This document shows positions 6,001-35,182 of a stretch of DNA of 64,000 nucleotides, one piece after another. The stretch lies in NCBI GenBank assembly GCA_905160935.1, contig CAJHZI010000481.1:2602001-2666000 (forward strand), written 5' to 3'. The position numbers and the translations under genes are program-made. A model generated the notes under the pieces. That model was given only the letters and a program-made list of their open reading frames with translations, searched no databases and had not been told where the DNA came from. Position 1 is the stretch's first letter. Every line of letters begins with the position of its first letter. This DNA is from Enchytraeus crypticus. Lineage: Eukaryota; Annelida; Clitellata; Enchytraeida; Enchytraeidae.

Positions 6001-9000
6001 CTATGTCTAACATATGGAATACATTAATATGGCTATAAATGGACTATGTCTAACATATGGAATACATTAATATGGCTATAAATGGACTATGTCTAACATA
6101 TGGAATACATTAATATGGCTATAAATGGACTATGTCTAACATATGGAATACATTAATATGGCTATAAATGGACTATGTCTAACATATGGAATACATTAAT
6201 ATGGCTATAAATGGAATATGTCTAACATATGGAATACATTAATATGGCTATAAATGGAATATGTCTAACATATGGAATACATTAATATGGCTATAAGTGG
6301 ACTATGTCTAACATATGGAATACATTAATATGGCTATAAATGGACTTCGATTGCTTATAGTGATAGTTAACTTACATCGTAATGATTAGTTGTTGCTTCT
6401 AGTTTTAAATTACTTAATTATACTAGAATTTCCCCTTGTTGTGTCGGGGCTGCTTGAAGAATAGACCAACCTTGTACTGTACGTGTCGTAAAAAGCGACA
6501 TAAAAATAAGATCCACACCAACGTCAGAATGGGGATTAATGGGATGCGGAGATTAAAAGTATCTTCGTTATAATTACATGATAAACTAAGTTGTACATTG
6601 GGGTTGACTGATTAATTAAAGTGTATTTTGATTGATTAAGTGATTAATTAAGTGATCGACTTTTTGACTACTTTCAGTACGACGGTCAGTGTGAATGCAG
6701 ACATGATCGTGGGGGGCGGGACTGCAGAGATTGCCCCGCCCGTATGTGGGGAGATCCTAGGATTGGATGCAGACGTGAGTAAAGTTGATAATGTTCTGGT
6801 TAAGGTGTTCATCATCATCATCATCATCGTCATCATCATCATTATCATCATCATCTTCCCTTGAATCCCAGTTTAACTAGGGTCGGGATACGAATTCTGG
6901 TATTCTGGTTATGGTGTTCTGAGTAAAAATTAAATAAATGCAGCACATGTAAGGTAAATAAGTAAATAATGATAATTAACATGAGGTTTGGATACGACAT
7001 AGCGTTTTGTGAAGGGATTAACTTGTTGATCTGTGGCGCGCACTTTAGTGAGCGTGAAAGAAAAGTCCCTGTAATAGTATGTACCTTGGACCTGCCAATT
7101 GAGAGAACACTAGAGTGAGATTTAATCCTAATAGGCCCTAATAATTTTGGTATAAATTGAAGTGAGCGCTATGACACCAAACAAGCAAACATAAAACTAT
7201 GGATCTATTATTACAATTAAAGATTTTTTCATATATTGAATGCCTACGTGACTGCTTTTTATTGAGCTGGAGTCAGTGGCGATGTTGGTAAGATATTCGA
7301 CCTCTGATCAGTGCGTGCGGGGATCAAATCATGGGCTAGCCTGTCAATAACATGGCTTTCGAGTGAGGAAACTGACGTTAAAATTAGCTTGTAGCTTTTT
7401 ATCACCTTTATTTCCGATCATTTTAATGCTAAACATTAACAGTAATCATTTAAATCTGTTTGATTGGTTTCTGTTTATGAAAGGAAACCAATACGTCGAG
7501 TATCTTACCAACTTCGCCACTTGGCTGGAGCCAGTGGCGAAGTCGTTAAGACACTCGACCGCTCGACAGCGAATCAGTAAGTGCGGGGTTCACATCCTGG
7601 GCTCTCCCGTCACTGACACCGCTTTCGAGTGAGGAAACTGACGTTAACATTAGCTTTTAGCTTTTTACCAGCTTTATTTCCGGTTTTTTTAACGCTAAAC
7701 ATTAATATTAATTGTTTTAATCTCTTTGACTGGTTCCTATTTCTGAACGTTTCAAAGGCTGTGTAACTGATTATGTAACAGCGTGTGAGTGTAACCATCA
7801 AGGTTCAGCGAACAACGAGTGCGACAAGAGGACCGGTGCCTGTCAGTGCGCCCCTGGGGTGACGGGGGAGAGGTGTGACCGGTGCGCCCGGGGGACCACC
7901 GGCTCTCTGCCTAACTGCGTGCCCTGCGGGGAGTGCTTCGATAACTGGGACGCCATCATCAGCGGCATTAGAAGTAATTAAGATTATAAGTATATGCTTA
8001 AGTAATTGTAAAAATTGTATAAATTGTATAATTGTATAGAACTCATAGGCTCCAAAAATTACCAAAAAATTTAAACGAATGGAAAAGTCTCAAATATGGG
8101 ATTGACTGATGGATGATATGATGTAGGTCAGAGAGGTTTTGAGACAGTCTATTCGTATCCCGACCCTAGTTAAACTGGGTTTCTAGGGATAATGATGATG
8201 ATGATGATAACTTGAATAATTGTATAATTAGCTCATTTTATAGAACGTCAAGTATCGGCATGAAATTTAGAATGGCTGTTCCTGAGATATTGGGATCAAT
8301 TACATGTAGAGCTGATTAAAATTATAAGTATATACTTAAATAATTGCATAAATAGCTCATTATGTAGAACGTCAAGTATCGGTATGAAATTTAGAATGGC
8401 TGTTCCTGAGATCCTGGGATCAATTAAACGTAGAGCTAAGCGGAGAGTAAACTTTAAGACGATCACGGGACTGGAAAAGTGAAAATGATTATAAACTATC
8501 GAGGGTTTAAACATATGGTTTTTAAATATGTAGATAAGTATGTAACTAAGTTATTACAAGAATTAAATAAGTTATTATTTCAAAAGCGATATATACGTAT
8601 ATTTTCCACTTCCAGTTATCTTCTTGAGTTGTTCTCAATCATACAGATATGTATTGACCCATGTTGTGTCCGAGTCGCTGAAGGATAGACCAACCTAAAC
8701 TGCACGTAAAAGGCGAAAGACTATCAAAGGGAAACCATCTCAGAAGCCATATTATTCCAAAGGTATAGGCTACACGAAGATGTGCTTAAGCGTAGCCTTT
8801 TGTAAAGAGATTAACTCATTAATCGATGGAGTGCTCTTTATGGAATGCAAAAAGAAGATTTAAGTAGAGATATGTGCCTTGGGCCTGCACTTAGTAGAAC
8901 ACTTGAGGAGATCCATATTGTATAATTTATATCGATGTGTCATACTCTTTCTGTACAGATGCATATTCTCCTCATCATCAGTGTCATATATAAGCTCTAG

Positions 9001-9106
9001 ATATGCTATCTAGAGCTTAGATAGCACATCTAAGTATCTTAGATAGCATATCTACTTAAATGACGTCCCTGATATCATCCTTGTATGAGGAAACGGACGT
9101 TAAACC

Positions 9107-9144
<38 letters not shown>

Positions 9145-12100: not shown

Positions 12101-14343
12101 TTCTTGATAAAAGTTATAAAGGAGACTGGAGCCCGTGGCAATGTCGGTAAGATATTCGACCGTGGGTCAGTGTATGCTGGCTTCTAATCTTGGGCTCACT
12201 CGTCACTGACATCGCTTTCGTGTGAGGAAACTGACGTTAACATTAGCTTTACCAACTTTAAAGCTAAGTTTAGCGTCAGTTTCAGTAGCACAAGGGGTAC
12301 TGCTACATACGATTTGGCTGAAAGTCGAACTGATGACCTCCTACTTCAGATCTATTTTCCCATTTTCTGTAGTCGCTCAATTATTGCATATACATTGCAC
12401 ATATTTTGACTGGATTAAGCTCTGTATTGTCTTATGTTTATTGATCAAGAATGGATTGATTGAAATATCCGATAAGCTATGAATTGCCACTAATTTAGTC
12501 ATGATATTATAGATTAATTTCAAGAGTTTTGCCCTGTGTTTGATTGATTTATAAACCCGATGAACTAAGCGAGATATGATTGTGATACTATCAACTATTT
12601 TACTGAATTCAACTTTATCGCGTTTCATTGATTTGATTTGCAACTAATCGATTGATTAATTTATCAGATCAGCTCAGCTAGAGATCTTAGTAATACCCTT
12701 GATTAATCGATTAATCTCTATACTTCTATATATTCATTTTATTGACCAAATATTGATTGATTGATCTCTCAGAAAATTTTAACGAGAGATCTGAGAGATA
12801 CTCCGGAATAATTGATTAATCAATTCTCTTACCCTGCATTGATTTGATTTACTAGTAATTCATTGATTTATTAGTCAGATAAGCTCACATGAGCTGATGT
12901 ATTGAATTAATTTACCATTAGTGATATTTAATTCATGTACTAGTAATTGATTGATTGATTCCTGATATAGATTGAGTCATCAGATAACTTCCGCTAGGGA
13001 CCTGTGTAATATGATTTGACGTATTGATTTGATTTACTTGTAATTGATTGATTCATTCATTAGATAAGCTCGGCTAGGGACCTGTGTGATATGATTGTAT
13101 TTATTTGTATTTGATTGATTGATTAGATAAGCTCAACTAGGGACCTGTGTTATATAATTTGATGTACTGATTTTATTTACTTGTAATTGATTGATTGATC
13201 AGCTAAGCTCCGCTAGAGACCTGTATGACATGATTTGATTGATTTGATTTACTTTTAATTGATTGATTGATTCATCAGTTAAGCTCTGCTAGAGACCTCT
13301 GTGATATGATTTGATGTATTGATTTGACTTACTTGTAATTAATTGATTGATTGATCAGATAAGCTCGGCTAGGGACCTGTGTGATATGGCGCATGGGGAC
13401 GCCCAGATGGCGCACGACCGCGCCCAGACGGCTAAAAACGAGTCTGAGGGGGCGCGCGCTGACCTCCAGGCCCTCATCATCACCATCGAGAAATTCCTCG
13501 CTACAGAGGGAGCCACCCCGCGAGAGATAAGAGAGGTGTTAAATCTTTAAATAACTGTTCAAGTTTTGTTTTTGAGGTGTTAATTTTTATTTCGTTTAGT
13601 ATCGTTTATTTGTTCATCACAGCACAGATTAATAATAATAAAGGTTTAATAAAGGTTTAACGTCGGTTTCCTCATCCAACTATGATGTCAGGGACGTCCC
13701 CACAGCACACATCACTACAACACACATCACTACAGATTATACAAACAATAGGAACGTGCATGAAGTTAGATAAACAAATAACAATACAAAAGATGCTACC
13801 ATAAAAGAGCCAGAATCTGTAAATAACTGTTCAGGTTTTATTAAAAAAATTTATTCAGTTTTTGTACACTGATGCGTAATCTTTAATCTTTTTGAATCTC
13901 TTTGAAGCTATTAAATGAAGAAATGAAATATTAGTTATCTAAATAAGTTTAATAATAATAATGTTTGATGAATTAAGTTAAGTGAATTATTTAAATGATC
14001 TGCCATATCAGCGCATTTAAAATTGAAAACAATGCTTATTATTTGCTAATTCTTAAACTATGTAATATCATTTTATTACAGTATCTAATAATTTGGTCAT
14101 GTTCTAAGAAAGACATTTTCTTGCGGCTTCTTTATTGTTGTAATAACCCCTTGTTTCTTTATTAATGTAATTACCATTTGTTTCTTTATTAATGGAATTA
14201 AATTCAATTTCTTTTGAATGCATCATGAAGTATACATATATATTTTGCATATATTTTTCTTATATCCTTTGTTCATATGATTACGTAGAAATATAAGTAA
14301 TAACAAAAGTAATTCTCTTTCTAGTCAAGTGACATCCCCCCCC

Positions 14344-14375
<32 letters not shown>

Positions 14376-17300
14376 ACCCCAATGAAGGAACCGAAATACT
14401 TATTCTTACTCACATTCCTTTTTCAATCTCCATACGTAAGGCACTTAATCGATTAACAAGTTAGTCAAATTATTAAAGACTGTGCCTCATCCATATCTTG
14501 ATGTAGCCCATAGCCTGTGCAATTTTAGCACTAGGTGATTTTCCTTTTTCCTTCCTCATTTCTTGCCCAGTCGCCTCTTACGACAGGAGCAGTTTTCGAT
14601 TGGAATGTTCTTAAGTTACCCTCACGGGAAACTAACAATAATAATAGCAATATTTAAATTTTGTGTACTTGTTGATTTGAAAAAAGGTCGCAGAGGAAGT
14701 CCTGAGGATGTCCATTTCTCTGACACCGGATCAGATTCGTGAGTTGGCAATAAAAATCAACGTAACGATCCGTGGATTGACGAGAATAGACGAGATCCTG
14801 GAGAAAACGAGAGCGGACCTGCAGATAGTCAGGAATCTTGAGAAAAGAGCCAACGATGCCAAGTATGGGTCACGCTGTTCAAGCCATATTTTCAAAATGT
14901 TTAAAGTCATACAATGGTCATAATGGGTACAATGTTGTGTACTGCTCTAAATATTTGTTGTTAACTTTAATCATTTTAGAGCGACTGGAGTGCTGCAGTC
15001 TGATGTGAAAATTAATATTCTTGGGTCAGTGGATAAATGCCATCAGCTATGACGTCACTGCTTTAGGTTATATTGATAAAATGTTATTTAATCTCGTAAA
15101 TTTAATGCATGATACACTTCAGTTTCCCTTGTCGAAGTCATGTTCCAGATCCGTCCAAAAACAATCCGTACATTCTCAAGATATGATTCTGGTCTAACAG
15201 TTTACAGGACACACAAGATTCTGGGACCCATCTGTGCTAAATTATGAAGAACTTAAGTCTAAATGCATCAGTATCAGTTTGTGTGCGTGATTCAATTTTG
15301 CAGTTTAGTGTGAGGCTCGATTTTATGTCTCGCCCCTGCACTACTATCTTCAAAGAGACGCCTGCTCCAGAAATTGAGTTAGCCTTTGAACCTTTGATGC
15401 CATTCCTTTTAAAGTGTCCTAGAAAAATCTGTCCAAAACGTACATAATGTGTTGGTATAACAGGAAAGCGGCAGATGATATTCTAAGAACGGCCCAGAGG
15501 ATTATTGAACTGCTGCGCAAGGCAGCAGAAGCGCAGGACGCTGCCGAATCAGCCATCAGTTCAACCAGAATGCAGATCACTCAAACTGAAGAGGATCTGA
15601 ATAGCGTTAGTGTATTTTCTTTAAGTTTTACGAACGAGAGAAGGCGCAACTCCGTCTAAAATTCGACCTCCTTACCTAAATCCAAAGCTTATGCCAAATT
15701 TAATGTCAGTTTCCTGCTCGATAATATATAACTGATGGATTTGATCCCTGTAACTACTGATTCGCTCTAGAGCAACTTGCCAACAAACCACTGGTTCAGC
15801 CCATTTGACGCATGACCGAATACGCAACTTAAATTTGCCATTTTTATTTTAAATTTTGTACTTTTGTTACTTTATATTATAGAAAATAATCTCAAATCAT
15901 AATCGCTGTCTCAGAGAGAAACGGTATTTTGAAAAAGTACAATAAAAATTTGTACATCGGTACTTAATAGAAGTCCTTAGCAACAGTACTCTGGTACATT
16001 GCATCAGTACAATGTAGTTTACAATAGTACAACGGTACTTTGCAACAGCGGAACTGTACTTTGTACAATGGTATTTTGTACAACAGTACTTTATGCTGCA
16101 CACCGCAAACTGCGTTTATTCTGAGAGTTAAGGATGCCATATGAAAATTATCTAAGGCGCCTTTCTCTTGATTTCATTAGTCAGATTGAGCTTTTTAGTC
16201 AGATTTTTTAGTCAGATTTTTAGTCAGCTTTTTAGTCAGATTGAGGCTTTTATACCAGTCCTGTTTGATGTGTAAGTGCTACGATGCTTACGAGTGCGGC
16301 GCTGTACATTTAAACATTGCATTTGTATTGCATTTGAATTTATATTATTGATTGCATTGCATTTAGTGCATTCCTTTCTCCAGAAATTATTACACAATTT
16401 TCTAATCCTGACTCTAGTTAAACTGTGATTCAAAGGAAGATGATGAAAATGATGATGACGACGACGACTATGATGATGATGATGATGAAGGCGATGAGGA
16501 TGACGACGACAATGATGATGTTGATGATGATGACGATATATTAAATTAAATTGTATTTACTGCAATTTTTACCCACTAGATCGAAAGAATCGTGACGGAG
16601 ACTAGCGAGCAGTCGAACACGACGTTAATTAGAGTGATTGATCTAAGAGAGAGGGTCAATCGCTTGAGGCAGAGGTTCATTGAGAACGAAAGAAACGTTC
16701 AGAGGGCTGCTGCTGAAGCTAAGGAGGCAGAAGAACTAGCCAATAAAGCTGAAAGAGTAAGTTGTCTCGTATTTAATTGATTTAAATGCATTAACAGGGG
16801 CGCATATATAGCCATTATGCAATTCCCTCACCAAGAATACCCATTACGCAAATCCCCCTAAATATGTAAAAATTACCCCATATTTGTAAAAAAAAATCCC
16901 CTCTAATATTTTGACCACGCTCTCTGCGTAGTCGACAAGCCTTGTAGACGCCCCTGTGTATTAGTATACATTGACTATTATCAATCACTTATTGGATTGT
17001 AATTCGTTGAAGTAATTTAGATAATTATTGCGTTATTTGTTTTTATTTTTTTTATTTCATAATGATTTCTGATAAATGCGAATATTATTACAATGAAAAT
17101 CAACCTTTCAGATTTCTTAAAAATACATTTCGTGTTTAGTTTCTATTACTTTGCATTTGAGACGACACATGTTCAGAATATTGTATTCACAATGCAATAA
17201 TTACACCCGGAATATTCAAATGAGTTGAGGCTCCTAATCATTTATATCTAAACAATTTCTTCGTATTTACTACTTATTATTACTACGTACAGGATGCCAA

Positions 17301-19413
17301 TGAACTGGAGATTAAATACACGGAAGTCTCGAGACAGTTGGATGCTAAGTACAATGAGACGAGGATTGCTAAGGAGAAGGCCGATGCTCTGAAGGAAAGG
17401 GCCTCGAGCATGTTCACCAACATAAATCAGAAAGTCACCAATCTACGAAGTGAGTGAACTCTGTGATTTCAGTGAAGATTAAAATAATAATCATTTTAGA
17501 TTATGCAAGTTTAATTTTTGGCAACATTTTTAATGTCCTACTAGTCTAATTTTGGTTTATGGGCATAAACATTACTCACATAAAGAGTAAAGCAAAAGCT
17601 AAATATAGGAAAGAACCGAAAAAGATTAACAATGGTATAAGCATATATGACTAACAACCAACGCTATTTCCTCAGGTATTTCAGTCTGTGTTCATTTTGA
17701 AGTGGGCCGGGTAAACCGAAGTACTCCGCCCAGGCAAACCCCGCCCAGGTGAACCCCGCCCAGATGAACCCCGCCCAGGTGAACCCCGCTCAGGCATGCC
17801 CCGCCCAGGTGAACCCCGCCCAGGTGAACCCCGCCCAGGTGAACCCCGCCCAGGTGAATCCCCCCCAGGCAAACCCCGCCCAGACAAACCCCACCCAGGT
17901 GAACCCCGCCCAGACAAACCCCGCCCAGACAAACCCGCCCAGGTAAACCCCGCCCAGGTAAACCCATAATGGAAGTAATATCAGCGCAATGATGTCACAA
18001 AAGAGGATGGCTAATAAGTAATTTCTCTCTACCCGACTTATAAATGTTAATGCAATGGCATTCAATGGTAACAACATTACAATAGTCAAGGTCTAACCAC
18101 AACGTTTAATATAGGAATAATAACAACGGTTTAATGTCCTTTTCCTCACCCATGGTGTCGGAGATTTTGTATTGCCAAATTTAATTAATTTAATATAAAA
18201 ATTTAAACGAGAGATTTGCGTATTAGTAATTCATAGACTTTGTATGATTACATTCAACTTTTAGTAATAAATTGTTTATTCCTATAGATTTTTACAAGAT
18301 AGTTATATATCTAATCGGGGATCAGCCTCACATCTCCAGTAGTCCACTATTGTTGTCCTTTTTATTATATTATTCGATTTTAGCTAAAAATCGAAACGTC
18401 TTTTTACACATATTTTCAAAAATTTAAAATATATCTCAATAAAATCAAAACCGATATCCTAATGAATATACTGTGCTTTATAACGATTGAGTGGCCCAAA
18501 CTGTGACGAGATTGTTTGATAAACTGTTGGCTAGCGATACCGTACCTGACCATATCTTTTATGATGCCAAAACAGGCGTTAGAGTTAAAGTTAGCCTTAT
18601 ACTTTTCTATATAGCTACTTAATAATTGGCATGAGCAGTATAGTTTGATTCCTATAAATGCTATTTGCATGAATATGCTATATACTGTAGAATGTACTTC
18701 AAAACATGTTAAATATTTAAATTTGTCTTAAGCCAGACTGATGAGTTTTAGTGCAGCCGATTTGACGCTGTCATTAGACTTAAATAAGAAAACTCGAGTT
18801 TAATCTTCGTGTGATTTTATTGTAAACGAAGAGAATTAGCTTTGTCGTAATATAGAAATTAAGCCGTAATTACAATTCTATTTGGGCGCTGTTCAGACTT
18901 ACATTTTCATGCTGCTTTGTATGAAACTGTGTCTCTTCGAGTGCTATTCACAATGAGTTTAAGCTATGCCTGTTGAAGATTTACATGTATTTATCCTGCT
19001 TCATTTTTGATATTTCACGAGAACTTTATTGCATGTTTTGTTTGAATTTTTGTTGCCTATTCAATATCATTATAGCTAGTTGAACGATTATATCTTGAAT
19101 TCATTGTAACATTTGATGTTGCAAAAGTTTTCACTTCATAGATCTAGTGATATGAATTGTGTCCTTTTCTTTTCTAGTGTTTTAAATTATTTGGCAACAA
19201 CTGCAATTCATATTATTCACTTTGCACGTATATTTTGCTGATCATTCTAAAATCCTCGTACTCTATCTAGGTTGGGAGCGTGACTTTAAGTCAAAGGAGG
19301 AATCATTGACCATAATTCTGGGTCAGATAGGAGGTCTGCAGGTGAATATGGTGCAGCTTGTAGTCAGCATCAAGGATGCTGAGCGCTATCTAAGGACCTG
19401 CGGCACAGCCTAA
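1..19413 (+). CDS. Laminin subunit beta, 3' half of gene (isoform ending in first terminal exon)
   Basis: Spliced CDS, partial at the 5' end. The 17 exon segments (1-15, 641-869, 1555-1706, 2249-2464, 3348-3547, 6678-6774, 7782-7973, 9218-9398, 9869-10053, 11176-11411, 11779-11964, 13359-13535, 14687-14862, 15464-15605, 16580-16756, 17293-17449, 19271-19413) join in one open frame of 952 codons plus TAA. The product is the secreted basement-membrane laminin beta chain, which trimerises with alpha and gamma through its C-terminal coiled coil. Visible domains in order are the end of one LE repeat, seven full LE repeats, the CGECFDNWD junction into the coil, coiled coil, a Cys-rich beta knob (exon 11779-11964), more coiled coil, and a C-terminal Cys. 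Domain order and remaining length match vertebrate LAMB1 after its domain IV. The N-terminal LN domain, earlier LE repeats and domain IV lie upstream of the window. Assignment to beta is firm because of the knob; orthology to a particular vertebrate beta is not claimed. Confidence 0.95.
16..640 (+). repeat. Intron made of 27-bp acceptor-like minisatellite with a stray exon copy
   Basis: From about 60 to the acceptor at 640 the intron is a tandem array of a roughly 27-bp unit built around TGATGTTTGTTTTAGC. Each unit resembles a 3' splice site (T-rich tract then TTTTAG). Because 27 is a multiple of 3, it translates as a nine-residue repeat (LLLMFVLAC), so the long open frames here are not genes. 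Positions 411-436 are an exact 26-base copy of the first 26 bases of the following exon (641-666), 230 bp upstream. Confidence 0.9.
641..869 (+). CDS. Laminin beta exon: LE7 and start of LE8
   Basis: Acceptor TTTGTTTTAG at 631-640, donor GTTAGA from 870; enters with two bases of a split codon and leaves in phase 2. It encodes [15 protein letters not shown]... with Cys spacing of a full laminin EGF-like repeat, then [19 protein letters not shown], matching vertebrate beta1 CQCNGHADDCDPVTGECLNC. It follows a minisatellite of acceptor-like units. Confidence 0.93.
870..1554 (+). other. Laminin intron
   Basis: AT-rich intron. Positions about 880-1110 are a degenerate tetranucleotide run (AATC/AGTC type). 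I see no gene or dispersed-repeat copy in the rest. Confidence 0.7.
1555..1706 (+). CDS. Laminin beta exon: end of LE8, start of LE9
   Basis: Acceptor ATATCACAG ending at 1554, donor GTAATA at 1707. It completes an Arg codon from the previous exon, giving [19 protein letters not shown] (vertebrate beta1 CERCLAGYYGDP), then [17 protein letters not shown] and CDCEPGYTG. Leaves in phase 1. Confidence 0.93.
1801..1995 (+). mobile_element. Dispersed repeat family D (GAT-tailed), copy 1
   Basis: Contains the family signatures ACGTCAGAAAGGGCATTCGG, GGTGAGCGCCTAG, AAACGAATGGAAAAAT, CGACCCTAGTCAAACTGGGA and TTCAAGGGAAGATGATGATG ending in a short GAT microsatellite. It lies in the intron between laminin exons. 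Non-autonomous and noncoding; class not determined. Confidence 0.75.
2104..2240 (+). repeat. TTATG/TTAGG simple repeat abutting a splice acceptor
   Basis: A pentamer array (GTTAT with GGTTA variants) runs to within about ten bases of the acceptor TTATCTAG at 2248. The open frame across it ([11 protein letters not shown]...) is a repeat artefact. Confidence 0.85.
2249..2464 (+). CDS. Laminin beta exon: end of LE9 and LE10
   Basis: Acceptor at 2248, donor GTAAGA at 2465; phase 1 in and out. It encodes [21 protein letters not shown] then [20 protein letters not shown] and [16 protein letters not shown]. This matches the vertebrate beta1 LE with CHNNIDTTDPEACD and CLKCLYHTEGEHC, a beta-chain hallmark. 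Confidence 0.95.
2465..3347 (+). other. Laminin intron
   Basis: AT-rich intron without a recognisable gene, SINE or tandem array; it ends in TTGTTGTTATCCTAG. Nothing further supported. Confidence 0.6.
3348..3547 (+). CDS. Laminin beta exon: LE11 and start of LE12
   Basis: Acceptor ATCCTAG at 3341-3347, donor GTAGGA at 3548; enters with two bases of a split Met codon and leaves in phase 0. It encodes [35 protein letters not shown] and [16 protein letters not shown], matching vertebrate beta1 CLCLPNVIGQNCDRC and TWQLASGTGCDPCNC. Confidence 0.95.
3685..6347 (+). repeat. 43-bp minisatellite, 62 units, in laminin intron
   Basis: A unit based on ATATGGCTATAAATGGACTA plus TGTCTAACATATGGAATACATTA is repeated 62 times. 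The interval is exactly 43 bp for 60 successive steps (3729 to 6309) and only the first unit is 42 bp. The commonest variant is GGACTATG against GGAATATG; the latter is at units 1-4, 8, 12, 17, 28, 42, 50, 53, 59 and 60. Other changes are TGTCTAT for TGGCTAT in units 1 and 3, and ATAAGTGG in unit 61. No unit has an indel after the first. It fills most of the intron between exons 3348-3547 and 6678-6774. Confidence 0.98.
6430..6545 (+). mobile_element. 5' part of dispersed repeat family D
   Basis: TTGTGTCGGGGCTGCTTGAA, AGACCAACCTTGTACTG and CGTCGTAAAAAGCGACATAA-like sequence followed by CCAACGTCAGAATGGGG. The same block heads the full-length-looking copy at 49005-49275, so this is a truncated member. 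Confidence 0.65.
6678..6774 (+). CDS. Laminin beta exon: most of LE12
   Basis: Acceptor CTACTTTCAG at 6668-6677, donor GTGAGT at 6775; phase 0 in, phase 1 out. It encodes [20 protein letters not shown] then [10 protein letters not shown], aligned with vertebrate beta1 GQCQCMPGFGGRTCSEC and FWGDPDVECR. Small exon, correct Cys spacing. Confidence 0.93.
6812..6890 (-). mobile_element. Family D repeat, 3' end with CAT/GAT tail, inverted
   Basis: On the minus strand it reads CGACCCTAGTTAAACTGGGA, TTCAAGGGAAGATGATGATG and a GAT microsatellite of about 45 bp. It starts about 40 bp after a laminin donor site. Confidence 0.75.
7265..7490 (+). mobile_element. tRNA-derived SINE family A, first of a tandem pair
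   Basis: Diverged copy (AGTCAGTGGCGATGTTGGTAA ... GGGATCAAATCATGGGC ... GAGTGAGGAAACTGACGTTA). The similarity to the next copy (7521-7750) continues past the SINE into TTTATTTCCG... and TTGATTGGTTTCTG. The SINE plus its 3' extension therefore looks tandemly duplicated with a spacing of about 256 bp. Confidence 0.8.
7521..7750 (+). mobile_element. tRNA-derived SINE family A, second of a tandem pair
   Basis: GGAGCCAGTGGCGAAGTCGT (A-box region), GTGCGGGGTTCACATCCTGG (B-box region), GCTTTCGAGTGAGGAAACTG and the shared 3' extension. It ends about 30 bp before the acceptor of the laminin exon at 7782. Confidence 0.88.
7782..7973 (+). CDS. Laminin beta exon: LE13 and start of coiled coil
   Basis: Acceptor TTATGTAACAG at 7771-7781, donor GTAATT at 7974; phase 1 in and out. 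It encodes [41 protein letters not shown] then [11 protein letters not shown], matching vertebrate beta1 CHQCFALWDVIIAEL. The CxxC is where the LE stem ends and the laminin coiled-coil arm begins. Confidence 0.95.
8047..8215 (+). mobile_element. Family D repeat, GAT-tailed
   Basis: AGGCTCCAAAAATTACCAAA, AAACGAATGGAAAAGTCTCA, CCCGACCCTAGTTAAACTGG and a short GATGATGATG tail. It shares a GGATTGACTGATGGATGATA insert with the copy at 1801-1995, so these two form a subfamily. Confidence 0.75.
8234..8437 (+). repeat. Tandem duplication of about 115 bp
   Basis: GAACGTCAAGTATCGGCATGA and GAATGGCTGTTCCTGAGAT at about 8242-8290 recur at about 8358-8410. The region between also repeats (AATTATAAGTATATACTTAA). 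Noncoding intronic duplication. Confidence 0.75.
8655..9145. mobile_element. Composite dispersed repeat (family E) ending in a TTA-tail element
   Basis: Starts with GTTGTGTCCGAGTCGCTGAA and AGACCAACCTAAACTGCACG (as in family D heads), then AAAAGGCGAAAGAC and CTCAGAAGCCATATT. It ends with TGACGTCCCTGATATCATCC, GAGGAAACGGACGTTAAACC and a (TTA)n run at 9107-9143. Related pieces are at 6985-7090, 9530-9600, 11530-11760, 14440-14630 and 51520-51570. A local set of nested inverted repeats (AGCTCTAGATATGC/TCTAAG) is at 8994-9055. Confidence 0.6.
9218..9398 (+). CDS. Laminin beta exon: coiled coil (domain II)
   Basis: Acceptor TTTTTCAAAG ending at 9217, donor GTTAGA at 9399; phase 1 in, phase 2 out. 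It encodes [10 protein letters not shown]..., then the heptad-like stretch [19 protein letters not shown] and LRRQLEFIR. Potential N-glycosylation at NET and NGT. A (TTA)n run lies shortly upstream of the acceptor. Confidence 0.88.
9399..9868 (+). other. Laminin intron
   Basis: AT-rich, with a weak family E fragment at about 9530-9600 (AAGCATTTCAGAAGCTATAT). Nothing else supported. Confidence 0.6.
9869..10053 (+). CDS. Laminin beta exon: coiled coil (domain II)
   Basis: Acceptor TTCTGTAG at 9861-9868, donor GTGGGT at 10054; phase 2 in, phase 1 out. It encodes [38 protein letters not shown] and [12 protein letters not shown]. High charge with regularly spaced hydrophobics; NLT and NAT glycosylation sequons. 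Confidence 0.9.
10070..10205 (-). mobile_element. Dispersed repeat family G, inverted copy
   Basis: On the minus strand it carries ATTAGAGTGCTACAGTCATC, a GACAACATCGAGCAC core and AAGCCGGCGAGCAAAAAG, followed by AAAAGGTGCAAATTCCAAAA. The same modules occur at 36412-36490, 47068-47155, 54243-54305 and 59440-59562. Noncoding; class unknown. Confidence 0.7.
10206..11175 (+). other. Laminin intron
   Basis: No gene or clear repeat copy recognised. The 62-codon open frame on the other strand has no supporting features. Confidence 0.6.
11176..11411 (+). CDS. Laminin beta exon: coiled coil leading to beta knob
   Basis: Acceptor TTTCGCACAG ending at 11175, donor GTTAGT at 11412; phase 1 in, phase 0 out. 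Too few internal start codons made this exon easy to miss, but the frame is open throughout. It encodes [38 protein letters not shown] and [18 protein letters not shown]. It aligns with vertebrate beta1 sequence between GALDSITKYF and the knob. Confidence 0.9.
11530..11760. mobile_element. Family E dispersed repeat
   Basis: GTACGCACCTTAAAAGGCGA, CCCCTTAAAAGCCATATT, TCTCAGGCGCCTATTGATGC, GAGACGTCCCTGACATAGCC and GGACGTTAAATTCTTATT. The 3' module is shared with 53860-53950. Confidence 0.65.
11779..11964 (+). CDS. Laminin beta exon: Cys-rich beta knob
   Basis: Acceptor GATATCGCAG at 11769-11778, donor GTATAC at 11965; phase 0 both sides, 62 codons. It encodes [20 protein letters not shown] then [10 protein letters not shown] with six Cys, followed by a helical stretch [21 protein letters not shown] Cys-rich loop interrupting the coil is the diagnostic Lbeta domain of laminin beta chains (vertebrate beta1 CGGPNC...KCGGPGCGGL). 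The exon is clearly GC-richer than its introns. Confidence 0.96.
12121..12260 (+). mobile_element. tRNA-derived SINE family A
   Basis: GAGCCCGTGGCAATGTCGGTAA-like A-box region (12129-12150), degraded B box, CGTCACTGACATCGCTTTCG and TGAGGAAACTGACGTTAACA. An AGCTAAGTTTAGCGTCAGTT piece follows, like an inverted 3' end. Confidence 0.8.
12655..13358 (+). repeat. Tandem array containing copies of a splice acceptor and exon start
   Basis: About seven units of 60-85 bp precede the exon at 13359. Each has a GATTGATTGAT-type tract, an AG, and a copy of the first 25-30 exon bases (ATAAGCTCGGCTAGGGACCT then GTGTGATATG). The unit at 13064-13093 is identical to the first 30 exon bases. Others start near 12979, 13123, 13201 and 13280 with 1-5 changes; two more (near 12668 and 12880) are strongly degraded. 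No copy extends further into the exon. Confidence 0.92.
13359..13535 (+). CDS. Laminin beta exon: coiled coil (domain I)
   Basis: Acceptor TTGATCAG ending at 13358, donor GTGTTA at 13536; phase 0 both sides, 59 codons. It encodes [40 protein letters not shown] and [19 protein letters not shown], matching vertebrate beta1 LRNLIKQIRNFLTQDSADLDSIE in position. GC-rich against an AT-rich intron, which separates the real exon from the upstream copies of its start. Confidence 0.93.
13630..13745 (+). mobile_element. Family F (AAT/TTA-tailed) repeat
   Basis: AATAATAATAAAGGTTTAAT, GGTTTAACGTCGGTTTCCTC, ATGTCAGGGACGTCCCCACA and two ACACATCACTACA copies. This family is always tied to a TTA/AAT microsatellite at the GTTTAACGTC end. 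Confidence 0.75.
13746..14686 (+). other. Laminin intron
   Basis: AT-rich intron with two TTTCTTTATTAATG tandem units near 14150-14195, a C8 run and (CT)n microsatellite at 14336-14376, and an inverted family E fragment at about 14440-14630 (CAGTCGCCTCTTACGACAGG). Confidence 0.65.
14687..14862 (+). CDS. Laminin beta exon: coiled coil (domain I)
   Basis: Acceptor GAAAAAAG ending at 14686, donor GTATGG at 14863; phase 0 in, phase 2 out. It encodes [20 protein letters not shown] and [20 protein letters not shown], aligned with vertebrate beta1 VANEVLKMEMPSTPQQLQNL. Strong local similarity to beta1. Confidence 0.94.
14863..15463 (+). other. Laminin intron
   Basis: No recognisable repeat or gene. 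The open frame at 15244-15447 has no supporting features and runs to the acceptor region by chance. Confidence 0.6.
15464..15605 (+). CDS. Laminin beta exon: coiled coil (domain I)
   Basis: Acceptor GTATAACAG ending at 15463, donor GTTAGT at 15606; phase 2 in, phase 0 out. It encodes [40 protein letters not shown] and TEEDLNS; vertebrate beta1 has EKAQVAAEKAIKQADEDIQG here. Confidence 0.93.
15606..16579 (+). repeat. Laminin intron with three kinds of tandem repeat
   Basis: Degenerate GTAC-rich units of 14-17 bp at about 15940-16095 (CAACAGTACTTTG type). Then about five TTTTTAGTCAGA units at 16180-16255. Then a family D 3' end at 16405-16440 with a long GAT/GAC microsatellite to about 16540. 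Confidence 0.75.
16580..16756 (+). CDS. Laminin beta exon: coiled coil (domain I)
   Basis: Acceptor ACCCACTAG ending at 16579, donor GTAAGT at 16757; phase 0 both sides, 59 codons. It encodes [40 protein letters not shown] and [17 protein letters not shown]. Regular heptads; NTT sequon. Confidence 0.93.
16757..17292 (+). other. Laminin intron
   Basis: AT-rich. No gene or repeat copy recognised. Confidence 0.6.
17293..17449 (+). CDS. Laminin beta exon: coiled coil, last shared exon
   Basis: Acceptor CTACGTACAG ending at 17292, donor GTGAGT at 17450; phase 0 in, phase 1 out. It encodes [20 protein letters not shown] and [20 protein letters not shown]; vertebrate beta1 has LDEKYKKVENLIAKKTEESA nearby. 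Its phase-1 donor fits both terminal exons, at 19271 and 22652. Confidence 0.93.
17725..17968 (+). repeat. GC-rich 15-bp minisatellite in laminin intron
   Basis: About 16 units of CAGGTGAACCCCGCC and variants (CAGACAAACC, CAGGCAAACC, CAGGTAAACC). As 15 is divisible by 3, all frames stay open on both strands (NPAQV on +, GVHLG and GFTWA on -), so the four overlapping open frames here are artefacts. The minus strand repeats GGGCGGGG. Each + unit holds CAGGTGA or CAGGTAA, which resembles a 5' splice site. Sharp GC island in an AT-rich intron. Confidence 0.95.
17969..19270 (+). other. Laminin intron before first terminal exon
   Basis: AT-rich, with a short family F fragment at about 18105-18165 (GGTTTAATGTCCTTTTCCTC). 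No gene seen; it ends in CTCTATCTAG. Confidence 0.6.
19271..19413 (+). CDS. Laminin beta terminal exon 1 (C-terminal tail, isoform 1)
   Basis: Acceptor CTCTATCTAG at 19261-19270, TAA at 19411-19413. It completes a Ser codon and encodes 46 residues: [43 protein letters not shown]. The Cys 4 residues from the end is in the place of the vertebrate beta C-terminal Cys (VAVYSTCL) that bonds with gamma near the coil end. This tail is known in vertebrates to influence integrin binding. Candidate polyadenylation hexamers AATAAA follow at 19931 and about 20061. Confidence 0.93.
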
Positions 19414-19930
19414 CTTTTCTTCTGCAGCAAAAACAGAAATATGGTAGTCTCATTTGGACTTTCACAGATTTCGTATAGATGTGGACACTGGATGTTTTAA
19501 CATAGTTTGTTTGGTAGAGGTTCTTTTAGGATTCGAAAGGTGTTCTAACAAAATTTCTTTAGCAGTTCATGTTAAATGTTAGTTGATAGTGCTTAATTGC
19601 TAGATCTGAAATAGGTACAAATATTTAACTTTATTTATTTAAGATTACTTAATCAGGCCTTGTGATAAATCAAAGGAATCTTAATCTTTAATTCTAAAAG
19701 CATGTGTTAAATAAGTATTTAAGGCAACAGATTCAAAGAATATGAAGGAAGCATAATTATCGTGTTTTCACACTCAGCTAACATTAAGTGTCCTAGCATT
19801 GCTTGATTTAACATATTTCTATACTGAGGCGATTGCCTCATTCATCCAAACGATTTTCGTACAAATTTGGTAGCATTTATGTAACTGGTAACTGTTGCTA
19901 CAGATATGTTAGCTTTACTTGTACTCTACT

Positions 19931-19936
19931 AATAAA
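19931..19936 (+). terminator. Candidate polyadenylation signal after laminin terminal exon 1
   Basis: AATAAA about 520 bp after the TAA. Such hexamers are common in AT-rich DNA; a second lies at about 20061. Position fits a transcript ending before terminal exon 2. Confidence 0.35.
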
Positions 19937-21500
19937 TTTTGAACAGTTATTTTAGCTTTGCTTGAGCTTAATTTAAACTGTTTAGCATTATTTTCATATT
20001 TCAAGAGAATAATTACGTTAATTGCTTGTGATACGACCACTTTAGATAAATACCATGGATCATGAATAAATTAAATGTTAAATAAGGTAAATATAATAAG
20101 CTAAATTAAAAGGATCATAAATCAGGCTCACATTGGCTGGCTGCAAAAGTTTCGGTTAATTAAATGTTTCATTCAGTTGTTGTCATAACTGAAAGCGTAC
20201 AGTGTTGGGTTTGATCGGAAATTCCCAAGTCTCGTACTAAATTTATTGTATTCTCAAGTTTTAATTATCTCATAAGTTCATTAATATTCCTTGTTATGGT
20301 ATTTTATTGAAAAATTATATTTACACTAATTTACTGCTAATTTTGCATTATTCGCTATTATTCTGTAGTTCTATAAAATTTCCAAATTGTTTTTAATTTA
20401 TTTTTTAGTCTTTTTTACCCAATTTTATTAGTATAAGCTATGAATCTAATATTAATTATTATTAGTAGTATTTTTCGTTTACTCTTTCTTCATTAATTAT
20501 AATAATAATTTTATTTTTATATTATTATTATTATTATTAATATTATTTATTTGTATTATTATTTGTATTATTATTAGTATTATAGTATTATTATTAGTAG
20601 TAGTACTAGCGTTATTATTATTATTATTTGTAGTATTATCATTACGACTACTAATTCTAGTTAATTAATTATTTGAAGAAATCAATCCACTAACTTGAAC
20701 CTCATTATTTTAGTCAGTGTTCTAACTAATACTTCGTGTGGAGATATGCAATTAATTGCATGTAGTACATATATACATGTCTAACGTCGTGGTGATGGGC
20801 TTATCTAACGCTTGTTTGATCATGTTAATCTATATAAGATATTTTAATATATGTTCTAAGCTTCTAACTTGATCTTTAGTAAATATTATGTCGCTAACAA
20901 AACTTGCCTGCACAATACAATATACTTTTAATTTTGATTAATGATTACAGCAATGCTACATTTTTTCAACATGTTTATATTTCACTTGGTGCTATATTTT
21001 AATTTTTCAATTTTTTCGTTTATAATATCGGATTTTAAAGTTAAATATCTTAAACTCTCGTTCGTAAATCTAGATCTAGTAAATATTACATTCATTCTGC
21101 AAACTTATCTGTAACCTTTAAGTAAACATTTTATTGTATTATTTGTGCGATTTTAATTATTAAATTAGGCATTTATCATTTCTAAATATTTAACGTTAAA
21201 AATGTCTAGTAGGCCTACTAATGGCTAAAATTCTTTTAATGTAGAAGTATCTAGGTGAATTTATACGAAGCTAAAATAGATATTATATTATCCCTTGTCG
21301 AAACATTTATATTACTCCGATCGTGGCGTATTCTGAATGCGCTTGATTACAGTAGTGAGATGTTGCTGGGAAAACAAAAATATTATGTCTAAAAATTTGT
21401 CAAGTTTGTCCTCTGGGGTACTACATCCCGTTGCCTACAGTAATGATAGTAGCTGACTTGTGGCCTCCTTATTCTGCAGACCATTTGCCTCAAATGTAAA

Positions 21501-21689
21501 CTGAAGGCAATAGGCAGCCGATAAATGGTTGTACTAACTAAAATCATTTATCGATAAAAAAACATTTACCAAACACAACCATTTATCGATAAAAAACATT
21601 TACCAAACACAACCATTTATCGATAAGAAATTTAGCCGATAAATGGCTGTATTTAGTACAACCATTTATCGGCTGCCTATTGCTTTCAG
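21501..21689. mobile_element. MITE-like element with 36-bp TIRs and TAAA flanks
   Basis: Left arm 21501-21536 (CTGAAGGCAATAGGCAGCCG then ATAAATGGTTGTACTA) is the reverse complement of 21654-21689 with one mismatch. Both sides have TAAA (21497-21500 and 21690-21693), a possible 4-bp target duplication. The inside is made of about three 34-bp tandem units with AACCATTTATCGATAAAAAA. Noncoding; superfamily not assigned. Confidence 0.75.
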
Positions 21690-22651
21690 TAAACTGTGAT
21701 GTTAAATTAGTTAGCCGTTTTGTTCTGCCGTCTGAAACGGAAGAAAATCCAATATAGTAATTTAGCAGTGTGTTGGTCATTGCCTTATACAAGACTCAGC
21801 CTCTAGATCAAGTGGTTTGAATGATGCGTCTGGCCTCTATCAGATATTTATACCACCATTTAAGAGTAAACACGATAGCTCTGTTATTGCAGAGCTATCG
21901 GATTTAAACATGGCTCTCAGAGTATTGACCATCTGTAAAAGTTCTTTTTACCAGCACTTCTACCAGCATTTTGCTAGCACTCTCTGACAGTATTCTCACT
22001 TCTCTCAAATTCCTTTCTTCAGTTTTCAGTTGTAACAATGTTGCAAAACAGTTATTTTGCTAAACCATTTGGCAAGCCTGTTTTGTATTATTTTATTTTT
22101 GACATTTATTGTATGACTATTCTGCGATTTTTGGTTAGGTTTATCAGTTCAAATGGTTCATTCATATATTATGTTTCGAAAAGTTAAACTATTTATATTC
22201 CCTCTGTTTTTAACTGTCGCCCAGATGCATACCGTCCTTAAACATTTTTTCACTAGTATAGTTGGATCGAACCAAAAATTTCGAATGTTTCGCGAAAACT
22301 GTTAAGTAAGGCCTAATGCAAAAAATTAAAATTAATATGTCATCCGAAGTCTTCTTCTAGTCATCAGCATTCCGGCCCCAAATACCCCCTACCACATGTA
22401 GGGACGTTAAATATTACTTATCCCGAGGAGCATATCGTTAAGATATTTCGATTAATACAGTAATAAATGAGTGCACATTGTAGTACAATATGCAGTATTA
22501 TACAAGTGTACATTACTATATAATATGTCGTAATAATTGAATATAAATCTTTACCATTTTTCATTATCAACGCAGTATATGTGTATATATATATAAATAT
22601 AAGTTACATGTTTTTCTTTATAACAATAGCAACACTTTTGAATGTTTTCAG

Positions 22652-22791
22652 ATATGGAGAGCTCATTTAGGACTAACGAGGGCAAACTTGTGGACCTCTC
22701 AGGCAGGGTCATCCATCTGAATGGTGAAATGGAACGCCTTTTGGAAAGCATTCTAGAAGTCGCCAAATATCATAGAACCTGTACGCAGTGA
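22652..22791 (+). CDS. Laminin beta alternative terminal exon 2 (C-terminal tail, isoform 2)
   Basis: Acceptor AATGTTTTCAG ending at 22651, TGA at 22789-22791. Joined to the phase-1 donor at 17450 it completes an Asn codon and encodes 45 residues: MESSFRTNEGKLVDLSGRVI, HLNGEMERLLESILEVAKYH, RTCTQ. It aligns without gaps to the tail at 19271-19413, with 14 of 43 residues identical, including FxxxE, the L/M/L heptad positions, SI and Y-x-RTC at the same place. The frame is intact and the splice site is good, so it is unlikely to be a dead relic. It would give a second laminin beta tail. Confidence 0.88.
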
Positions 22792-22985
22792 TTGGGGATA
22801 GCTCTGGCTTTTGTTACTTTGAGCAAATTATAAACATTTTATATTTTATATACAGTCATAGTTTATATTTAGTCGATTAATTCTACGTACCAGGCTGCAA
22901 TTAACTATTGTATATAAACGTTATTATATAGTAGGGCTTCTTAATTATTGCCAAACCAGAGCCAGTCTTATCATAACAAAGAATT

Positions 22986-22989
<4 letters not shown>

Positions 22990-23032
<43 letters not shown>

Positions 23033-23073
23033 AGTCTATATATATGTATGTGTATAACTGTATATGCATATAT

Positions 23074-23133
<60 letters not shown>
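22990..23133. repeat. TA/TG dinucleotide microsatellites
   Basis: (TG)n and (TA)n at 22987-23033, and about 27 TA repeats at 23079-23132. Long IYIYIY open frames on both strands are artefacts. Confidence 0.95.
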
Positions 23134-23134
<1 letters not shown>

Positions 23135-25307
23135 TATATAATCAAATATTCCAGGCATCATACTTTGATGATGATCTAGATGCTAATTCTTCATTGTATT
23201 TTATTGTATTGCATCAAAGTTGTAGAAAGGAATTTACACAATATTTAAGAAATCTTTTAAGTTAAGGCTCATTCTGAATAGAGGTTAAATATGTGCATTG
23301 GACATTCACGCTAACAAATGGTTGGGTAAAAATTGCTCTCGTTGGATAGAACTAGATAGAGAGGTCCAGTTGAGTACAGTGTCTAAATACGAACGATTTT
23401 CTACGTAGGATTTTATTAATGTCTTTATGTGTTGTCGATATTAATTTTTATCTTTTGCGAATAGTATGTTCATGATTAAATATATGGGTCTATTTATTAT
23501 CTACAGAAATGAAATTTAGCTGAGTAAAGTTAGTTACTAGTTCGGAATTATGCCCTTTTTCTAACATGAGCTTAAATAAGATGTGACGTTGTTTTCTGTT
23601 TGTTTTTTTACGCTATAAAGTTCTTCCTAGAATGTTAAAAAGACTAATCAAGTATTACAGCGAAATTATCGATCTTTTATGACTACTTTCACTTTCAGTT
23701 TAGCTAATTATCCATTTACCGGTCTTGTCGTGTTTGTTCAAGATTTACTCTTTGATCCCCTCGCACAGGTGCTGTTTTCGCAGAACTTAAACATAAGCGG
23801 AGGGATCATTTTAGAATCTAACATTTTAGTAATGTTACATATTTATTCACCAATATGTTTTATTCAGTTCTAAGTCTGAATTAAGATTATGAAATTACTT
23901 AGTTATATATGAACATTTATTTCTGAATTAAATTCTAAAACTTTATTTATTTAGGCTAACCCAGTAACGTTTTCTATTGGCTATATGTAACATTTGCAAG
24001 CGTAAAATTTAAATTTGTGACATTTATCTCTGCTAGTGTTTTGTATACGTAATTTTACATACAGTAATAATGTAATAATTTTTACAGTGTAAGCCATCCA
24101 CAGTCGTGGATATGTGTATGCCATCTTATTCTTCAACTATATAATGTAATCTGCAATCTCTGAGTGTAACAAATTATGATAAGGATTTTAATTAATATTT
24201 ATATCAAATGATTAAACTTTATGAATTATAATTCACTGCCTGCAATATCTGTAAAGTTATGCATGCTGTTAAATAACAATTTGGTGATAAACTCTATTTA
24301 TATATGACTACACTGCCAATTCTTCTTAAAATTATAAATACGTGATTTAAAATATCTTACACGAACATGGTATAATAATGCTTTTGTTATGTGAAGTAAT
24401 TTAACTTCTTCTAAATTTCTTAGTATCACCGATGAAGTTTATATTGTGAATTATTTAATTACCTTAATGATTTCGTAAACACTATTGAGTAACATTGCAG
24501 TCATAAAGTTACTCGTATACATGTTAAATATTTAATTTTTACAATTTATTTATTATATTTTTAACCTGAATCAGCACCCCATATCACATATAATGCAGTA
24601 TGGATTATTTTTAATATGGTTCAGGTATTTGAAGCTAATTGCATGAAAAATAGAATAGTAAAACTTGAATCATGTAGTGAATATTTTTATATAGTATTAA
24701 TGTAAGTACAAACATATATGAAGCAAAAATATATGAGTAAGCATTTACTTTTAACATAAATGCGTAAATTTAAATCAAGATTTAGACTACAAATATATGG
24801 TACGCAGTACTACATTGTTAAACTTGTACAGATGAATTTGCTAATCGGCATATTTGTTGTGTACGAACTAATAGGATTATTAAGCAATATTTGGTAAATT
24901 TTAATTAAATGCCACTTGTTCAATACAAATGCGACCGATCGTAGTGTTACTGCTACAGTGTATATACAATTGTATGCACTATTGTGTAGCATGGGTATAG
25001 TAGTTGTCTTGTAGTTGATTTTTCAAATAAAATATTCATTTATTTTAACATTTTTGAGTACAGTTTCTAAGATATCTCTTTTAATTTCTTTTTTATAACT
25101 GTATTATACAACCATTGCCACTTCGTTTGCTGAATCATGAACAATTAAATTTAGATCAGACTCAAAACTTATCTCTCCTGATCGATTAACATAGACACTG
25201 GGTTGGGATTTAGCGCAGTCGGTTTAGCTGCGCGGAAACTGAATGCAAAACTATAAAGTTCTTTGCAATAAAAACACGCATTATAGTGATATGATCAACT
25301 ACGTTGA

Positions 25308-25515: not shown

Positions 25516-26947
25516 GACATTCAATAATTAGCTTACTTCATCAGATTACTTCATAATTTTTGCATAGGCTTCAAATTCGAATGTGAAATTTGTGGAGCCA
25601 GCGTCCAGTTGGCTCTGCAAAACCTTGGTACGCAATACGTACCAAATGGAGTGAGTTCTATTTGTGTGTGGGACTCACAGCAAAAATTAGCACTAATTGA
25701 GCTCTAATTTTCGGCATATGAGTGAGATTTATCTGAAGAAGTTGCGGAGCCACCTTGACGGAGCTGAATTAATAAGTTGTACGAAGAGAACTGAGACTGC
25801 CTTTAAATGAGCTATCGAGTCAGGGAGAAGGATAAAATGAAGTAACACTAGCAGAAGTATGGCTACAACGTTGAGATAAATGAAGTAACAAAACAGATGC
25901 TTGTGAAGATGCGCCTAGCAGGCCTACGTACGAGCCGTAGCTTGCTTAACTTCAAGCTTCAGACTTTATCCTAGGAAAACGTTTAAGGAAATACTTTGGA
26001 AAATACTGTAGTGGTATTTATAAAATTGTAAATTGATCCGTTTCGAAAGCCAATTTTTCTAATCGTAGCGAAACAATTAACTCGATAGCGTGCATAGAGG
26101 CTCCTAGGATTTAGTTTAAAGTGCATCGATAGTGTAGTGCTCATAAATAATGTAGTCTATGTCAGGCCGAATCATCTTGTAATCAGATAGCATTGTCTGC
26201 CGATAGACGAAGATTACTTACTAAAAGATAAAGCGATAGGGGTCCGAAGTATGAAGTAGGATTGAAGATTCCCGAAGTCTGACGTCAGTGAATGATGGAT
26301 TGTTTATATTAGTAGATAGAGGGAGTCAAGGTTAAAACTAGAGTAACCTGTAGATTTCTACCGTAACTAGAATTCACAATAACGTAAACATCATTGTCTT
26401 CTGAATTCGATTGGGAGATATCAACTTGTGCTAAATCAGCTTGTGCTAAATTCACAGTCAAAGTGGTTTTAACTAATTATAACCAATGATATACTTTTAA
26501 GTTGTCGTTTTAGGAATTGCTCCAATGGTAAACTTTCGTCCATAAAAAACACTGTTCGCTAGATTTTAATGCATGACAAGGAGGTTGTTGATGATGTGAT
26601 TAGGATGCAAAAGTGATTGTGATTTAAATCAATTGATTGACTGACTGATTGATTGATAGATAGATATATTGATTAATTAAAGCAAAACCTGCTATTCAGC
26701 TTCTCGCCCATATTTAACATTTTCGAACAATTTCTAAACGTTGCCTTAGGAATACAAGTTAAGCAACACTACAGAATGCAACTCTTTCTAATACAATAAA
26801 ATTATAATTTGCAAATAAGCCAATTTAACTACTGATGTATGATCAAAATAATATACACCAAATTAATAGACGACACTGAATTCCTTTAACCGACGAGATA
26901 ACAGAATAATTGTGTAAAAAATAAAAGGCAACATAGAACAACTAGAT

Positions 26948-27276
26948 ATGTCAGCGTCCCACGATAACGTCAGACACACTAGTGAGTGGCATGATGATAA
27001 AGACGACGATGTTTTCTCTCCAATTTATTCCTCATCATCGCAACATCGAGGAACGATCAGCCCCGGTGGAGCTTCGCAGCGGTTGCCACCGTCATCCATG
27101 TCAAGGTCGAATCCTTTCGAGTCCACGGGTCCCGACGGAAGACGAGTGAGTCCTGGCTATGAGAGAATATCTGTAGGAGACGTCCCTAACACTCGTCGCT
27201 CTTCCAGGTCACCTGCAAACAGCCGAGGATCCTCACCGAGACAGTTCAGAAGTCAGTCCAGTCTCACTGATCTCAG
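26948..27276 (+). CDS. Unknown gene, exon 1 (first coding exon)
   Basis: ATG at 26948 with an upstream in-frame stop; donor AG/GTTAAT at 27277, phase 2. Encodes 109 residues rich in Ser, Pro and Arg. An AAT microsatellite begins right at the donor (27280-27310). Confidence 0.8.

Positions 27277-27312
<36 letters not shown>

Positions 27313-35151: not shown

Positions 35152-35182
<31 letters not shown>

Follow-up and report, generated by a model that had tools for sequence, protein, structure and literature searches.

Two in-phase terminal exons in one laminin beta gene of Enchytraeus crypticus: a putative switch between two C-terminal tails

Introduction

Can a single laminin beta gene provide its chain with two different C-terminal ends? 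Different laminin isoforms are generally attributed to distinct genes for the chains. In the 64,000-nucleotide stretch of Enchytraeus crypticus DNA analysed here (hereafter the window), a laminin beta gene lies with its 3′ half on the plus strand, and one of its splice donors (17449|GT) faces two in-phase acceptors, each leading into an exon with its own stop codon; the second exon (B) starts 3.2 kb beyond the stop of the first (A). We read this pair as an ancient exon switch that would produce two E8 ends and allow the animal to retune receptor affinity or chain pairing, on top of its beta paralogues, and we hold this reading tentatively, with a probability of roughly 0.43. If it is true, the swap would be limited to the last ~47 beta residues and would amount to a natural experiment on integrin affinity and trimer choice, and invertebrate basement-membrane diversity would be undercounted wherever identity clustering collapses isoforms.

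Results

Identity and extent of the gene

The relevant features, in window coordinates, are as follows.

7782..7973, plus strand: exon with the last LE repeat and the start of the coiled coil (..CGECFDNWD..), placed by phase, GT-AG ends and homologues
9218-9398, 9869-10053, 11176-11411, 11779-11964, 13359-13535, 14687-14862, 15464-15605, 16580-16756 and 17293-17449, plus strand: nine further coiled-coil exons, in phase, with GT-AG ends
17293..17449, plus strand: the last of these nine, penultimate exon common to both tails, 157 nt, phase-1 end, donor GTGAGT at 17450
19271..19413, plus strand: terminal exon A, 143 nt, 46 codons after the split codon, stop TAA, acceptor CTATCTAG|GTT
19931..19936, plus strand: first AATAAA past tail A, a candidate poly(A) signal by motif only, as is the next one at 20065
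22652..22791, plus strand: terminal exon B, 140 nt, 45 codons, stop TGA, acceptor TTTTCAG|ATA, protein ..NMESSFRTNEGKLVDLSGRVIHLNGEMERLLESILEVAKYHRTCTQ
23475..23480, plus strand: ATTAAA, first weak poly(A)-like motif past tail B (others at 23927 and 24211), by motif only

The ten successive exons from 7782 to 17449, whose boundaries were picked by eye from open frames, are all in phase with GT-AG ends, and the penultimate one closes on ...CGA A|GTGAGT. Contig C388 also carries, on this strand and 5′ of the window, an LN domain ~23 kb away (PF00055 positions 1-175 of 233, C388:2578437-2578967, E 5.3e-59) and LAMININ_IV_B (PF21199) in four pieces that reach to ~1 kb from the window (C388:2598026-2600573). 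The joined chain scored above the Pfam cut-offs for PF00053 (7 stretches), PF24973 and PF23219 (the LAMB1-4 helical domain), and the closest proteins were laminin beta chains, namely P0001 (52% identity over a 650-residue region), P0002 (51%) and P0003, the chain of the annelid Ridgeia piscesae (50%). With LN, LAMININ_IV_B, LE and LAMB1-4 helical domains and this level of identity to P0001, the gene is a true laminin beta, as the earlier note had claimed. Further LN matches lie ~1.08 Mb from the gene on the minus strand of this contig (G000:C388:1502198-1522745); genome-wide, LN matches numbered 29 (pieces of genes).

Two intact terminal exons

The two tails aligned without gaps, with 14/47 identities and the terminal Cys in register, and their BLOSUM62 sum over 45 columns (59, compared with a mean of -38.7 for shuffled B) was reached by 0 of 200,000 shuffles. 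A codon-usage score trained on the ten exons 7782-17449 gave +0.55 bits per codon for A and +0.42 for B, while among 5000 sampled intron windows the 249 that were stop-free had a mean of -0.77 and a maximum of 0.18, so that none reached the level of A or B. A parallel result was obtained for GC3 (A 0.59, B 0.53, gene 0.59), with intron GC at 0.32. Both exons carry a coding signature that is absent from intron sequence. On a rough position weight matrix the acceptors scored 2.2 (A) and 1.1 (B), within the range of the gene's ten other acceptors (-4.9 to 3.5), and 15/241 and 32/241 background AGs, respectively, scored as high; both acceptors are ordinary for this gene and not exceptional against background AGs. 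The proposal that two intact, phase-matched terminal exons share a matching Cys is borne out by frame, gapless alignment and coding signature.

One copy of each tail was found in the 524 Mb assembly; the tail-B query returned two other matches, at E 0.89 and 2.6. A profile search of the window with 19 beta tails, both own tails included, found no third tail exon, the next match (E 0.58) falling inside a known coil exon. The 3.2 kb between the stop of A and exon B would suit an origin in which B is what is left of the 3′ end of another laminin beta gene in tandem, but the profile search detected no other tail-like exon near B, the penultimate exon has a single match in the 524 Mb assembly, with no second copy found, and B sits in the exact phase of the window gene's donor; we give this origin almost no credence. 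The frames, phases and coding signatures point instead to an alternative-last-exon switch in one laminin beta gene, which we regard as likely. In such a switch, splicing into A with use of a poly(A) site near 19.95-20.1 kb would produce a chain ending ..YLRTC-GTA, and skipping of A with use of a distal poly(A) site would produce a chain ending ..YHRTC-TQ. A motif search of the 1.7 kb downstream of B (22791-24500) found no AATAAA.

Beta paralogues in the genome

Contig C329 carries another laminin beta gene, for which one tail was found; its last exon (~C329:665161-665025, minus strand, phase-1 junction by eye) ends ..KTATILHRTCS. We scanned 50 kb around this gene with the tail profile, covering 24 kb downstream of the tail. 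An A-like tail in this paralogue was rejected, its last exon not being A-type. A second match ('YYHRTCS') downstream of the tail was also rejected because it came from a minisatellite that lies just downstream of the gene and resembles the exon end (L044 ~3540-4040, minus strand), its many repeats being similar to the final codons of the C329 gene and the sequence around the stop (CATAGAACTTGTTC..TAG). A more divergent gene on C537, where 50 kb were likewise scanned with the tail profile, has LN and LAMININ_IV_B matches and is a candidate third laminin beta gene. The suggestion that the exon pair stands where vertebrates use separate beta genes does not hold as worded, since this genome has the C329 gene and the C537 candidate as well; the exon switch would therefore come on top of gene duplication and not be a mere substitute for it.

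Tail B is of an ordinary type and tail A of a distinct one

Among solved structures, tail B matched the human LAMB1 E8 chain without gaps (5xau_B, E 3.6e-5) and also 5mc9_B (E 0.037), in a search where unrelated coiled coils appeared from E 0.0026; tail A alone had no significant match to any solved laminin. Nineteen tails (A and 18 others) aligned without internal gaps, with L2, I37 and C47 invariant. In the common heptad register the a/d positions were hydrophobic at 13/14 sites in A and 12/14 in B, compared with 2 to 9 and 0 to 8, respectively, in the other six registers. Among 118 other tails (the homologues with a terminal Cys among 120 listed, of 159 found), Met5 occurred in 68/118, Asn12 in 76/118 and Tyr44 in 105/118, whereas tail A has Trp5, Lys12 and Leu44, followed by Gly-Thr-Ala past the Cys. 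The two tails differ from each other by W/M at position 5, K/N at 12 and L/H at 44, and by three residues past the Cys (GTA) versus two (TQ). By its match to LAMB1 E8, B is the ordinary beta tail; A, with W5, K12, L44 and its Gly-Thr-Ala end, is a distinct type.

Relatives showed the same division. The alignment chains of P0002, P0003 and P0005 terminated in exon B. The tail of P0001, which had no chained match to exon A or B, shares 18/47 residues with B and 10/47 with A and carries Met5, Asn12 and His44. By these residues and chains, B-type tails are found in many relatives and the A-type in one, among the 120 homologues listed of 159 found. A-type residues occur singly elsewhere: W5 in P0055, K12 in P0120, and L44 together with G48 in P0003. 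The tail of the last, from Ridgeia piscesae, is B-like at positions 5 and 12, yet ends ..RRLRTCG (Leu44 and Gly48 as in A and P0004); it could represent an intermediate state or an error in gene prediction.

Recurrence of the A-type tail in P0004

The one relative with an A-type tail is P0004, which ends ..REWIQTF.YK......YLRTCGTA. It alone has the GTA end among the 120 homologues listed (of 159 found), and it alone combines W5, K12, L44 and GTA among the 118 listed homologues with a terminal Cys. The open frame of P0004 encodes 1755 residues, nearly the full length of the chain, and lies on a JGI contig of 6457 bases; the part of the window gene that matches P0004 spans ~43 kb in 24 alignment blocks, so a cDNA origin of the contig is the natural reading. 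P0004 is 60% identical over 1574 residues to the window gene, whose exon A its alignment chain picks; with the C329 paralogue it shares 53% over 1064 residues. On these identities P0004 is assigned as an orthologue of the window gene, and its candidacy as an orthologue of C329 was rejected.

We asked how closely A and P0004 resemble each other beyond these diagnostic residues. Plain similarity does not single out the pair: P0004's tail shares 16/47 residues with A and 14/47 with B, and in simulations that placed the P0004 tail on the species tree (two trees, 2000 runs each) identities of 19/50 were reached in 323/2000 and 825/2000 runs and 16/47 in 470/2000 and 318/2000. By BLOSUM sum, the nearest tail to A was that of P0012 from Lingula (82, compared with 58 for P0004), and the nearest to P0004 was P0011 (73). 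On shared rare residues, a statistic chosen post hoc after the likeness had been noticed, A and P0004 were each other's best match (55.0 bits versus 33.8 and 29.0) and ranked 15 of 2701 pairs (74 non-redundant tails); without the three post-Cys columns the score was 39.8 versus 33.8 and 29.0, at rank 40. The same simulations reached the observed rare-residue score in 0/2000 runs per tree on 50 columns, a test flattered by simulated tails that lack real end gaps, and in 8/2000 and 6/2000 runs on 47 columns, and an identical run of at least 8 residues arose in 5/2000 and 14/2000.

These numbers bear on the idea that A is a tandem copy of B that arose in the window lineage and resembles P0004 by convergence. 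The 14/47 residues common to A and B and the unremarkable A-P0004 identity count are compatible with it, and the AU test on tails, which favoured A with P0004 by ~9 to 15 log units, left the alternatives standing (p 0.12 to 0.20; few columns). The scarcity of the rare-residue score and of the identical run among simulations argues the other way, as does the finding that A scores higher with P0004 than with B on rare residues, and we consider such a lineage-specific copy quite improbable. A is probably not a private oddity of the window gene, judging from its recurrence in P0004.

Searches for further A-type tails returned P0004 alone among 393 candidates when its last 116 residues served as query, and no match at E<=10 among 54 candidates when window tail A was used as a protein query. 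P0012 shares an ERDF..E.SLT stretch with A, its alignment chain also picks exon A, and a free 47-column tree groups it with A and P0004; we did not assign it to the A-type because in a control some tail scored as well in 98/1000 simulations.

Species pattern and age of the two tails

In a coil tree of 23 rows the window gene grouped with P0001, P0004, P0002, the Ridgeia chain and P0005 (support 100/97), which makes an annelid origin most likely, and within this group the order was (own,(P0001,P0004)), with support 100/99 and 100/98; the tree program flagged the window gene for unusual composition. Chain-wide identity between P0001 and P0004 is 68%, whereas their tails share only 10/47 residues. 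With P0001 B-like, P0004 A-type and the window gene carrying both, the pattern is most simply read as inheritance of both exons from a common ancestor of all three. Both tails would thus probably predate the split between the window-gene lineage and that of P0001 and P0004, an age that plain identity alone would not show, and on the simplest reading the P0001 and P0004 contigs, both cDNA-like, each display one isoform. A possible alternative is the loss of a different single tail in each of the two. Among the proteins listed, expression of both tails was seen in no single species; the 90% clustering of the protein set would hide such pairs.

Divergence was alike for both types (16/47 between A and P0004, 18/47 between B and P0001), which gives no indication of weaker constraint on one tail than on the other, as far as identity rather than dN/dS can tell. 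Coil windows as poorly conserved as the tails made up 8% for P0004 (<=16/47) and 10% for P0001 (<=18/47), and both tails fall in less conserved stretches of the coil. Because other animals have counterparts of both tail types, neither tail has the appearance of a relic.

The pattern of one tail per relative, A in P0004 and B-like in P0001, P0002, P0003 and P0005, would also arise if A works in some lineages and B in others, with one of them normally used in the window species and the other recently retired while still intact. The common ancestor of the window gene, P0001 and P0004 would nevertheless need to have carried both types, and both remain open here, with intact splice sites and a coding signature; we judge such a recent retirement rather improbable and continue to prefer a switch in which both exons are used.

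Discussion

The window gene resembles laminin beta-1 and beta-2 (LAMB1, LAMB2) and protostome betas in its domain types, coiled coil, terminal Cys and gapless tail alignment, and differs from them in having an A-type and a B-type tail as separate last exons. The choice between vertebrate beta1 and beta2 reportedly tunes integrin affinity, a result attributed to Taniguchi et al. 2009; the figure of about 20 final residues given in the earlier note presumably derives from that study. A vertebrate, too, can make beta chains with two different C-terminal tails, but these belong to two genes, whereas here they would come from two exons of one gene. Alternative terminal exons of a coiled-coil protein are familiar from tropomyosin exon 9, where, as proposed here, a common donor serves alternative last coding exons that alter the final coiled-coil turns; tropomyosin, however, is an intracellular actin-binding dimer, whereas laminin is a secreted trimer and receptors bind its end.

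Among invertebrates, the silkworm has a second laminin beta gene, BmLanB1-w, and resembles the window species in having more than one beta-chain version; BmLanB1-w is a separate gene rather than an alternative last exon, and so is comparable to the C329 paralogue (PMC4515764). Drosophila Crumbs (PMC5312091) likewise uses alternative splicing of one gene for what mammals spread over paralogues, but there the isoforms of a membrane protein are distinguished by a single EGF-like repeat in its extracellular part. Alternative last exons and laminin isoform diversity are each known; their combination at the integrin-contacting beta end was not named in the titles and abstract starts among the open-licence PMC full-text matches listed.

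What the choice of tail would do can be approached through the human complex. In the structure of laminin-511 with integrin alpha6beta1, the residue past beta1 Cys1785, the last of the human chain, lies in a small pocket formed by both integrin subunits and laminin gamma1, and the authors call it a possible important determinant of binding specificity (PMC8241838). Either tail is predicted to pair with alpha and gamma where the E8 rod ends and to form its bond with gamma via the same terminal Cys, and the differing core residues and post-Cys residues would then alter packing at the E8 end or the grip of the integrin. The two ends diverge both at this post-Cys pocket site and in three residues of the coil core, which makes it plausible by analogy that the choice of tail affects how tightly integrins bind, how well beta fits locally against alpha or gamma (chain pairing), or both.

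The main functional rival is a change in mRNA fate only, in which both tails are expressed and functionally equivalent and the difference in 3′ UTR matters through mRNA stability or localisation. Alternative last exons swap the UTR by construction, and both tails keep the heptad and the Cys and diverge at a similar rate, as equivalence would predict; the recurrence of the A-type core residues and GTA end in P0004, and the position of post-Cys residues at the integrin interface in the human complex (PMC8241838), argue against equivalence. We regard a purely UTR-based function as unlikely.

Other features of the window

The intron before exon A contains a minisatellite of ~15 bp units (CCCGCCCAGGTGAAC-like, read by eye) at window 17705-17965; the long open frames on its two strands probably do not represent genes. 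A near-palindrome at window 21500-21690, in the interval that separates exon A from exon B, has 54-nt arms that are 91% complementary and resembles a MITE-type insertion. Several coding-looking open frames were also present 3′ of exon B on the plus strand (window 26918-35492), with no Pfam match in the 4 tested. On the minus strand, an open frame at window 46375-46587 (VSNWFANARRRLKN..), a fragment with no Pfam match, resembles a TALE homeobox of the Mohawk type.
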